This document shows positions 13,662-16,635 of a DNA stretch of 64,000 nt, in pieces. How positions within the stretch are numbered: the first letter of the stretch is position 1; the number at the start of each line of letters is the position of its first letter. Under the pieces are notes generated by a model that ran no database searches, was not told where the DNA came from, and was given only the letters and a program-made list of their open reading frames with translations. This DNA comes from Kitasatospora sp. NBC_01287 (GTDB lineage Bacteria; Actinomycetota; Actinomycetes; Streptomycetales; Streptomycetaceae). The translations under genes and the position numbers were made by a program. The stretch lies in assembly GCF_026340565.1 (NCBI RefSeq), contig NZ_JAPEPB010000001.1:1178001-1242000 (forward strand), in the 5' to 3' direction.

Positions 13662-14726
13662 ATGGGCATATCCGGAGTCTTTTCCGGTCCGGGCCGCCAC
13701 CGCCGCCCCACCCAGGCCGAGCGCGCGGTGACCGTCGCGACCGTGGCCGGCGCGGGGCTGGCCCTGCCGCTGCTGACCGCGACCGGCGCGCACGCGGCCA
13801 CCCCCGCCACCTGGGACACCGTCGCCCAGTGCATGACCAGCGGCAACTGGAGCACCGACACCGGGAACGGCTTCTACGGCGGCCTGCAGCTCAGCCAGGA
13901 CAACTGGCTCACCTACGGCGGCGACCAGTACGCGGCGCAGGCCTCGCACGCGACCCAGGCGCAGCAGATCGCGGTGGCCGAGCAGCTGCTCGCCGCCCAG
14001 GGCCCGGCCATCTGGGGCACCTGCGCGACCACGGCGGGGCTGACGACGGCCGCGCCCACCCCGACCGCGCCGGTGAGCACACCCGCTCCGACGCCGACCG
14101 CGCCCGCACCGACCACGCCCACCACGCCCACCGATCCGCTCCCGACCGCACCGGTGGGCGCGCCCGCGCCCGTCAGCAGCGCGCCGACCGCGCCCACCCC
14201 GCCGACCGCACCGGTGACGCCGCCGAGCCCGGGCGCGCCCACCACCGCGCCGACCGCCCCGAGCGCACCGGCGCCGAGCACGCCGCCCGCCGCCCCGCCC
14301 ACCGCCCCGGGCGCGACCGCGACGCCCGCGCCCGGTTCCAGCACGCCGGCGTCCAGCGTTCCCGCCCCCGCGAGCCCCACCTGGGCCGCCCCGGTGCCGG
14401 GCACTCCCGCCGCCACCCCGACCGTGCCGCCCGCGACCGTGCCGACCGCCCCGGCACCCGGCACCCCGGTGTCCGCCGCCCCGCAGGCGCCCGCGCAGCC
14501 CACCGCGCCCGGCACGCCGGCCGGCGCCATCGACGCAGCCGGCGCCCCCACCGCGACCCCGAGCGCCCCCGCCGCCGGCTACACCGTGCAGAGCGGCGAC
14601 AACCTCTGGGACATCGCCCAGCAGCACCACCTCGACTCCTGGCAGCAGCTCTACCAGGCGAACCTCGGCGTGGTCGGCGGCAACCCCGACCTGATCCACC
14701 CCGGGCAGCAGCTCCAGCTGCCCTGA
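13662..14726 (+). CDS. Rpf-like secreted cell-wall protein with LysM domain, catalytic Glu missing
   Basis: Exported protein of 354 residues. A twin-basic N-terminus and hydrophobic stretch (about 1-45, ending THAHAA-like) form the signal peptide. An Rpf/transglycosylase-like domain spans about 46-118, followed by a Pro/Thr/Ala-rich linker of roughly 180 residues and one C-terminal LysM domain (YTVQSGDNLWDIAQQHHLDS, about 305-354) that binds peptidoglycan. The Rpf fold is recognisable from WDTVAQC, GNGFYGGLQLSQDNW and the second Cys. However, the family's QCESGGNW motif, whose Glu is catalytic, reads QCMTSGNW here. The protein may therefore bind rather than cut the wall. Regulation by the c-di-AMP riboswitch upstream is likely. 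Start ATG 13662 follows GGAGAGGGATG. Confidence 0.85.
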   Translation: MGISGVFSGPGRHRRPTQAERAVTVATVAGAGLALPLLTATGAHAATPATWDTVAQCMTSGNWSTDTGNGFYGGLQLSQDNWLTYGGDQYAAQASHATQAQQIAVAEQLLAAQGPAIWGTCATTAGLTTAAPTPTAPVSTPAPTPTAPAPTTPTTPTDPLPTAPVGAPAPVSSAPTAPTPPTAPVTPPSPGAPTTAPTAPSAPAPSTPPAAPPTAPGATATPAPGSSTPASSVPAPASPTWAAPVPGTPAATPTVPPATVPTAPAPGTPVSAAPQAPAQPTAPGTPAGAIDAAGAPTATPSAPAAGYTVQSGDNLWDIAQQHHLDSWQQLYQANLGVVGGNPDLIHPGQQLQLP

Positions 14727-14816: not shown

Positions 14817-15269
14817 ATGTCACGACGCGCCACCAGGCCCCGCCCGACCCAGCGCCCCGCCGAGCCCACCGCCTGCCCGTGCGGCCTGCCCGCGAGCTAC
14901 GCCGACTGCTGCGGCCGGCTGCACCGCGGCCTGGCCCCGGCGGTCACCGCCGAGCAGCTGATGCGCTCACGGTTCAGCGCCTTCGCGCTGGAGGACACCG
15001 CCTACCTGCTGCGCAGCTGGCACCCGCTGACCCGGCCGGCGGAGGTCGACTACGCCCCTGAGCTGCGCTGGCAGCGGCTGGAGATCCTGGGAAGCACCGA
15101 GGGCGGCCCGTTCCACCAGGAGGGCACGGTCGAGTTCACCGCCCACTACCGGGAGCGCGGGCACGCCGGCGCGATGCACGAGAACAGCCGCTTCGTGCGC
15201 CACGAGGGCGCCTGGGTCTACCTGGACGGCGATGTCGCCGCCGACTCCGACCCGGTGGACCGGCGATAG
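14817..15269 (+). CDS. YchJ-family protein (UPF0225, SEC-C type motif)
   Basis: Small cytoplasmic protein of 150 residues. The cysteine cluster CPCGLPASYADCCGRLH near residue 20 is the zinc-binding SEC-C-like motif, and QLMRSRFSAFALEDTAYLL with the C-terminal NTF2-like fold are typical of YchJ. Biochemical function unknown. No Shine-Dalgarno is visible; a CACAAT box ends 6 nt before the ATG, suggesting a leaderless transcript. The remains of a Nudix gene follow immediately. Confidence 0.88.
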   Translation: MSRRATRPRPTQRPAEPTACPCGLPASYADCCGRLHRGLAPAVTAEQLMRSRFSAFALEDTAYLLRSWHPLTRPAEVDYAPELRWQRLEILGSTEGGPFHQEGTVEFTAHYRERGHAGAMHENSRFVRHEGAWVYLDGDVAADSDPVDRR

Positions 15270-15279
15270 CCCTCGGAAC

Positions 15280-15667
15280 CTGCTCAAGTCGGTCTACGAC
15301 CCCGAGGTCTGGCAGTTCGCGGGCGGCAACCTGGAGGCCGGCGACGACCCGTGGCGGGCCGCCCGCCGGGAGGTCAGGGAGGAGACCGGGCTGATCCTGC
15401 CCGAGCACCCGGTCCCGCCGCCGCTCGCGCTGCTCTTCGCCGCACCGTCGGCGGGCCGGCCGTTCAAGGTGGGCGTGGTCTTCGACGGCGGCGCTCGACC
15501 CGGCGCGGCTCGCGACGCTACGGCTGGACCCGGCCGAGCACCACGAGTTCGCCGTCCGCCCGCTCACCGCCTGGCGCCGGGAACTGCGCCCGGCCCGGCT
15601 CGCGCTGGTCGAGGCGGGCGCCGAGGCCCGCCGCACCGGCCGCGCCGCCTACCTCCAACTCCCCTGA
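15280..15667 (+). pseudogene. Broken Nudix hydrolase gene
   Basis: Frame 1 from about 15280 encodes VYDPEVWQFAGGNLEAGDD and the Nudix-box helix REVREETGL, then VGVVFDGG. Homology then jumps to another frame at about 15490 (ALDPARLATLRLDPAEHHEF and onward, stop TGA at 15665-15667). The first 20-30 residues expected of a Nudix domain, and any start with a ribosome binding site, are missing. The gene thus looks both truncated at the 5' end and frameshifted. The Nudix box has Asp where the first Glu is usual. Probably a decayed gene; a base error at about 15490 would explain only the frameshift. Confidence 0.7.
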
Positions 15668-15789
15668 CCGCAGCGCCTGACCACAACACACCGACCGGCA
15701 CCACGACCCCGGCCGGTGGTGATAGGAAGTCCTGGTGGCCGCGCCCACCGCGGACACTCCGTCACCACCCGTGCGACCAGAGGACTCCC

Positions 15790-16635
15790 GTGCAGCTCTC
15801 CACCGAGGACCAGCGCCGCCGCGCACTCGCCTTCCGCGACCTCCACACCGCCCCCGGCGCCTTCGTCATCGCCAACGCCTGGGACGCGGGCACCGCGCGC
15901 CTGCTGAGCGGCCTCGGCTTCGCCGCGCTGGCCACCACCAGCGCCGGGCTGGCCTTCGCGCTCGGCCGGGCCGACGGCGCGAACCTGGTGGACCGCGACG
16001 AGGCGCTGGCCAATGCCCGGGCGATCGTCGCCGCCACCGAACTGCCGGTCGCCGCCGACCTGGAGAACGGCTTCGGCCGGAGTCCGCAGGAGGTGGCCGA
16101 GACGATCCGGCTGGCCGCCGCGACCGGTCTGGTCGGCGGATCGATCGAGGATGCCACAGGCCGGTCGAGCGAGCCGATCTTCCCGTTCGAGGCAGCCGTC
16201 GAACGGGTCCGGGCGGCCGTCGCGGCGGCCCGTGAGCTCGACTTCCCGTTCACCGTCACCGCCCGCGCGGAGAACTTCCTGCACGGCCGCCCCGACCTGG
16301 ACGACACGGTGCGGCGCCTGCGGGCCTTCGAGGCGGCCGGCGCCGACGTGCTGTTCGCGCCCGGGCTGCCGGACGCCGAGGCGGTCCGCACCGTCTGCTC
16401 GGCCGTCAGCAAGCCGGTCAGCGTGATCGCGGCCGGCCCGATCGCCGAGCTGACGGTCGATCAGCTGGCCGAGCTCGGCGCCCGCCGGATCAGCGTCGGC
16501 TCGGCCTTCGCCCGCCTCGCGCTGGCCGCCGCGCAGCGCTCCGCCGCCGAGATCCTGCGCACCGGTGGCTTCGGCTCCTTCGCCGGGGCGGTTCCGATGG
16601 CGGAGATCAACGCCGTGATGGAGCAGCCGGCCTGA
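15790..16635 (+). CDS. Isocitrate lyase/PEP mutase-superfamily protein
   Basis: TIM-barrel enzyme of 281 residues. IANAWDAGTARLLSGLGFAA, LPVAADLENGFG (metal/oxyacid-binding region) and GGSIEDATGR match the PEP mutase/2-methylisocitrate lyase branch that makes or breaks C-C or C-P bonds next to a carboxylate. The ADLENGFG segment replaces the DxDxGYG of classic PEP mutases, as in the common actinobacterial paralogues of unknown substrate. The GTG start has AGAGGA 7 nt upstream. A five-unit 12-bp repeat follows the stop. Confidence 0.85.
   Translation: MQLSTEDQRRRALAFRDLHTAPGAFVIANAWDAGTARLLSGLGFAALATTSAGLAFALGRADGANLVDRDEALANARAIVAATELPVAADLENGFGRSPQEVAETIRLAAATGLVGGSIEDATGRSSEPIFPFEAAVERVRAAVAAARELDFPFTVTARAENFLHGRPDLDDTVRRLRAFEAAGADVLFAPGLPDAEAVRTVCSAVSKPVSVIAAGPIAELTVDQLAELGARRISVGSAFARLALAAAQRSAAEILRTGGFGSFAGAVPMAEINAVMEQPA

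Follow-up and report, generated by a model that had tools for sequence, protein, structure and literature searches.

A wall-anchored Rpf-like protein of Kitasatospora with methionine in place of the catalytic glutamate: a probable pseudoenzyme

The window, a stretch of 64,000 nucleotides from Kitasatospora sp. NBC_01287, carries a gene (13662..14726, + strand) for a 354 aa Rpf-like protein in which the catalytic glutamate is replaced by methionine. The protein is probably a wall-anchored Rpf pseudoenzyme that acts by binding and tunes the active Rpfs, a reading to which we assign a probability of about 0.72. Rpf proteins wake dormant actinobacteria, and it is an old question whether they act by wall cutting only or also by binding and signalling.

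Gene, predicted fold and riboswitch

The protein includes a secretion signal, an Rpf domain, a linker and a LysM domain, all encoded on the + strand. The N-terminal signal (residues 1-45, 13662..13796) was recognized by reading of the sequence, from an Arg-rich start, a hydrophobic core and ATGAHA at its end, and is conserved in the subfamily described below. The Rpf (transglycosylase-like) domain (residues 46-121, 13797..14024) matches PF06737 with 90.5 bits for a cut-off of 27, and is also supported by an AlphaFold2 model and by Foldseek. A Pro/Ala/Thr-rich linker (residues 128-306, 14043..14579), again identified by eye, leads to the LysM domain (residues 307-354, 14580..14723; PF01476, 41.8 bits for a cut-off of 20.9), which is predicted to anchor the protein to the wall. 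The scores against the two NCBIfam equivalogs, Rpf (NF046106, 102.5 of 180 bits) and RpfC (NF046107, 82 of 200 bits), lie under the curated cut-offs.

As pointed out in the initial annotation, the family motif QCESGGNW reads QCMTSGNW (residues 56-63), while GNGFYGG and the two disulfide cysteines, Cys57 (13830..13832) and Cys121 (14022..14024), are kept, and a LysM domain and a riboswitch are present; the matches to the last two exceed their respective thresholds. Met58, encoded by ATG (13833..13835), is aligned by phmmer without gaps to the glutamate of the solved RpfB and occupies the place of the catalytic residue (RpfB Glu292) in the alignment to 1xsf, 4kl7 and 4emn and in the comparison of the subfamily. 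The genome encodes 8 Rpf domains in total, and the other 7 carry Glu at this place.

The AlphaFold2 model of residues 46-130 has a mean pLDDT of 96.7. Its top Foldseek match is RpfB (4emn_A, rmsd 0.6 Å, TM 0.90, 47% identity) and all 16 matches at E≤0.001 are Rpf structures. Alpha-lactalbumin, an animal milk protein, is a lysozyme-fold protein turned regulatory subunit that is devoid of lysozyme activity; its structural match to the model is not significant (Foldseek 1hfz_B, E 2.9). The catalytic domains of M. tuberculosis RpfB and RpfC (4emn, 4ow1) have the same fold but carry the catalytic Glu. In the predicted model, Met at position 58 is compatible with the Rpf fold. The RpfC variants E13A and E13M are reported to have been crystallised (PMC4118796). 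From the alignment coordinates, E13 should correspond to position 58 of the present protein, and these engineered forms would then be artificial versions of two natural states of the subfamily.

The gene is preceded by a c-di-AMP (ydaO-type) riboswitch aptamer (RF00379; 13498..13659, + strand; 59.3 bits for a gathering score of 38). The match spans the full model (1-134) and ends two bases ahead of the ATG; ligand binding is predicted. A riboswitch above the gathering score lies upstream of all 20 subfamily members. The genome includes 7 c-di-AMP riboswitches, three of which lead Rpf genes: the gene described here and two with Glu. One Glu-bearing paralogue, L003, exhibits the same plan of signal sequence, riboswitch, Rpf domain and LysM. 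Work on Streptomyces reports that c-di-AMP binding terminates rpfA transcription and that germination is delayed when rpfA is lost as well as when it is in excess (PMC10117811).

The domain order, the signal sequence and the ydaO-type riboswitch are shared with the RpfA-type Rpfs of Streptomycetaceae. The present protein differs from these by the replacement of the catalytic Glu, and its subfamily by Asp88 (20/20 members) and His96 (17/20), neither of which is observed in 35 canonical and NlpC-type copies. A Gly-Gly-Asp was found in two distinct copies and more outside the subfamily.

Extent of the subfamily and states of its catalytic site

The subfamily comprises 20 loci, one each in 20 of 70 Kitasatospora genomes. 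A first search compared the 129-residue N-terminal part with these 70 genomes, best matches only being considered. A profile of ten relatives was then used to search 394 genomes of the family (the 70 Kitasatospora and 324 from 16 other genera). The 20 loci score 206-230 bits with this profile, which was built from ten of them and so favours these, the other ten scoring in the same band. The next sequence below is the Glu-bearing L021 (197 bits), and the best outside the genus reaches 178 bits; among the best matches scored in the 324 genomes outside Kitasatospora, none comes near the scores of the subfamily. At most 11 first-look candidates per genome were scored and the best matches considered, so that a weak member could be missed. 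An order sample of 293 genomes (mostly overlapping genomes plus 15 of other families) gave no extra member among the matches listed.

The catalytic residue is Glu in 8 members (L011, L012, L014, L015, L016, L018, L020 and L025), Ala in 7 (L017, L024, L027, L029, L042, L044 and L045), Val in 2 (L010 and L013), Gln in 2 (L043 and L046) and Met in the window copy only. The idea raised by the initial annotation that CMTSGNW might define a conserved subfamily therefore holds in part: the motif itself is restricted to the window copy among the 20, and it is the loss of Glu that recurs (12 of 20).

Outside the subfamily, 49 of the 50 copies in the tree set, a non-random set chosen from ranked lists, carry Glu and one, L047, carries Ala. 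L047 (840-2003, + strand, genome G006) matches both the Rpf and the LysM profile and also has a c-di-AMP riboswitch. Glu was also observed in all of 80 Rpf domains from viral contigs (the best 80 of 82 found) in a scan whose patterns contain no Glu position and which would miss many subfamily members, since the patterns derive from Glu-bearing copies. In 7 of these 80 viral loci (L109-L188), the first cysteine is replaced and Glu kept, the reverse of what is seen in the subfamily. A further 39 loci, 38 of other genera and L209 of Kitasatospora, have Glu in 56/56 domain rows (47 distinct sequences); they were taken from ranked lists of profile searches, part of these Glu-bearing loci being the top-ranked matches to the subfamily profile. 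The set is partly duplicate, nine genomes occurring in both lists and some genes being entered twice.

The subfamily forms a clade (SH-aLRT/UFBoot 99.3/100, two variable columns masked). The 70-sequence tree left out 11 of 81 domain rows: duplicates, L002, L004, L005 and L008, which are far paralogues from the genome of the window, and the second-domain rows of L002 and L006. The concatenated tree and the AU test used 57 sequences, the 13 NlpC-type copies being left out and L016 and L046 entering without LysM columns. L024 (Ala) and L025 (Glu) are well-supported sisters (99.5/100). A single loss, with all 12 Glu-less members grouped, was rejected (AU p about 1e-64), as was a grouping that unites every Ala and Gln member (AU p 0.018); grouping of Met with the Val pair as one loss was not rejected (AU p 0.15). 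These tests imply that Glu was lost in at least three groups within the subfamily, the best tree giving four, with one further independent loss outside it, in L047. Several inner nodes are weakly supported, and loss followed by regain of Glu would formally fit as well.

Possible role and alternative readings

The reading favoured here implies a pseudoenzyme built on the Rpf lytic-transglycosylase fold that would be secreted and anchored to peptidoglycan through LysM, with expression under a c-di-AMP riboswitch of the type that also leads two Rpf genes with Glu in this genome. With the general acid gone, it would no longer cleave glycan strands efficiently. Its most likely mode of action would be docking, either to glycan of the wall or to a partner hydrolase; once bound, it could tune the active Rpfs as spores germinate or grow out, in the way that other hydrolases are tuned by inactive LytM proteins. 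We infer the lack of activity, the wall binding and the regulatory role from the features of the gene and its relatives. Substitutions of the corresponding residue in M. luteus Rpf are reported to suppress activity effectively (E54A, E54K) or to reduce it partly (E54Q) (PMC11356341), so that one would expect dead proteins for Ala and weak ones for Gln; the latter may still cut, since E54Q keeps partial activity. The Met and Val forms are expected to be likewise dead or weak.

A precedent may be found in DipM and the LytM-domain regulators, where an inactive hydrolase domain is reported to regulate, and in DipM to stimulate, active wall hydrolases (PMC10336132). The likeness would lie in the proposed model only: the LytM fold differs from that of Rpf, and partners are reported from experiment for DipM, those of the present protein being hypothetical.

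In the comparison of conserved residues (RpfB numbering), the 20 members were set against 35 copies (22 canonical and 13 NlpC-type). Trp285, Cys291, Trp297, Gly302, Gly304, Tyr306, Gly307, Gly308, Trp316, Gly320, Gly321, Trp352 and Cys355 are kept in all 20 members. Positions that are invariant in the 35 copies have undergone 4 to 9 changes each in the subfamily: Glu292, Ile299, Asn300, Thr301, Asn303, Gln310 and Phe311. The Glu-bearing sister group of 12 shows 6 steps at Thr301, 3 at Asn303, 3 at Ile299, 2 at Asn300 and one at Gln310, with no change at Glu292 and Phe311. Columns changed in at least half of the members represent 6 of 11 in the pocket versus 2 of 18 elsewhere (one-sided Fisher p 0.018; 0.066 with Asn303 taken out of the pocket list) in a post hoc test with hand counts, based on 29 conserved columns of alignment A3 (the window protein, L039 and 58 of the 80 viral loci) and on the pocket residues given in PMC10716330.

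Gln310 of RpfB (in GGLQ) is reported to contact N-acetylglucosamine (PMC10716330). This place is occupied by Gln in 8 members, His in 9 and Gly in 3. Changes at Glu292 and Gln310 do not go together: 19 of the 20 members depart at one place or the other; L012 alone has both residues and 5 members have neither. Gln310 is kept more often in Glu-less members (7/12) than in Glu-bearing ones (1/8), which argues that drift of the pocket is not simply a consequence of Glu loss. Five Glu-bearing copies outside the subfamily carry Arg (L041, L051) or Gly (L054, L057, L058) here, so that Gln310 may be replaced while Glu stays. Gln347 and Thr315 were dropped as signs of inactivity, since a Thr39-Gln68 hydrogen bond is reported for RpfC (PMC4648573) and is taken to involve this pair, and since Gln347 varies in Glu-bearing copies of other genera.

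These observations bear on a competitive version of the pseudoenzyme reading, where the dead cleft would still bind the glycan that active Rpfs cut and so protect it from them. The window copy retains Gln310 (its Gln76), Thr301, Asn303, Tyr306 and Gln347, Gln310 is present in 7 of the 12 Glu-less members in all, and the LysM domain is kept. The excess of changed columns in the pocket runs counter to a cleft maintained for its substrate and leans weakly, for the subfamily as a whole, to docking or regulation. A decoy is possible but rather improbable overall, although, with a pocket otherwise fairly whole, it remains quite plausible for the window copy. Thus the wall-binding non-enzyme envisaged in the initial annotation fits the selection, the riboswitch and the LysM domain. 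As to its alternatives of decoy or regulator, the pocket residues that the window copy keeps would still allow glycan binding, while other pocket positions drift in the subfamily.

It may also be asked whether the protein is still an enzyme, with proton transfer by an acidic residue of the loop that follows the catalytic helix. The candidate is Asp66, equivalent to RpfB position 300, with positions 301, 303 or 305 in relatives. This loop is among the pocket residues in PMC10716330, Asp or Glu occurs at 300, 301, 303 or 305 in 10 of the 12 Glu-less members (Glu at 305 in L042, L044 and L045), and the retention of Gln310 in 7 of these 12 would also be in keeping with a working cleft. However, 7 of the 8 Glu-bearing members carry the same acids and Asp300 is also found in Glu-bearing copies elsewhere (L006 and other genera), and thus the loop acids do not track Glu loss. 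Moreover, both Gln members are devoid of any of these acids, and in M. luteus Rpf E54A and E54K alone are reported to abolish activity (PMC11356341). Substitution by another acidic residue, which the initial annotation had named as a finding that would speak against its proposal, is therefore disfavoured by the sequence comparison, and an active enzyme of this kind appears unlikely.

Selection was estimated on the Rpf domain by pairwise codon likelihood, pairs with saturated or zero dS being set aside (e.g. L027/L029 and L017/L044, dS 4.4). The Glu-less sister pairs are under strong purifying selection, with omega values of 0.05, 0.05 and 0.05 (Ala), 0.10 (Val) and 0.05 (Gln) and LRT values against omega 1 of 14.7-37.6. 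Values are 0.09-0.18 for Glu-bearing subfamily pairs, 0.02-0.05 for canonical pairs, 0.02 and 0.10 for sister-group pairs and 0.15-0.20 for pairs including the window copy. On a six-taxon tree, the branch of the window copy has an omega of 0.20 for the Rpf domain (LRT against 1 of 5.7); for signal, domain and LysM together (172 codons) omega is 0.17 and the LRT 16.3, and for LysM alone the LRT is not significant (1.7). The omega of this branch, which also spans time before the Glu loss, is no different from the background.

A redundant Rpf copy heading for loss would account for the repeated loss of an active-site residue, for the patchy presence (20/70 genomes) and for the somewhat faster evolution of the subfamily domains compared with canonical ones. 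The Glu-bearing member L016 (1510-2418, + strand) has its C-terminus out of frame at the expected LysM, by error or decay. Decay is nonetheless very unlikely in view of the low omega of the Glu-less pairs (0.05-0.10): no stop occurs within the matched region of the 12 Glu-less copies, the riboswitch precedes each of these 12, LysM was found in all 11 that are not cut by a contig end, and both cysteines are conserved in 20/20 members. Finally, a sequencing or assembly error at this one codon, conceivable for a species represented by one genome, has a negligible probability, since the Glu codon is GAG in all 8 Glu-bearing members and ATG is two base changes away, so that one read error cannot make Met, and since the position is non-Glu in 11 other subfamily genomes through several independent events.

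Returning to the pseudoenzyme reading, earlier work on the mode of action of Rpf relied on Glu mutants made in the laboratory, M. luteus E54A and E54K among them. In the present case the catalytic Glu has changed naturally on several occasions, within a branch that selection maintains and, in the genome of the window, beside Glu-bearing paralogues, and the Glu-less members with their Glu-bearing sisters as controls (L011, L012 and L025) represent a ready natural experiment. A bolder and only tentative proposal, which we consider more doubtful than probable, is that the members are dedicated regulators: non-catalytic Rpfs would have evolved repeatedly and would control germination by binding to wall or hydrolase under c-di-AMP. 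If true, this would be direct evidence that some of Rpf biology is independent of muralytic activity. In the open-licence literature, as judged from titles and abstract openings, no paper describing a naturally Glu-less Rpf subfamily was found.

Downstream genes

The next gene downstream is YchJ-like (14817..15269, + strand; PF17775, 99.5 bits). A motif search identified YchJ next downstream in 10 subfamily loci including this one. In nine other loci the motif is absent from the 0.76-1.2 kb downstream, and at L046 the contig ends. Glu-less members account for 3 of the 10 loci with YchJ versus 9 of the 10 remaining loci. An open reading frame at 15232-16635 (+ strand) fuses part of a NUDIX domain (profile positions 27-60 of 134) with a sequence resembling PEP phosphomutase. 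The NUDIX frame that comes after YchJ in L018 extends further at its N-terminus; the NUDIX gene of the window therefore looks truncated.
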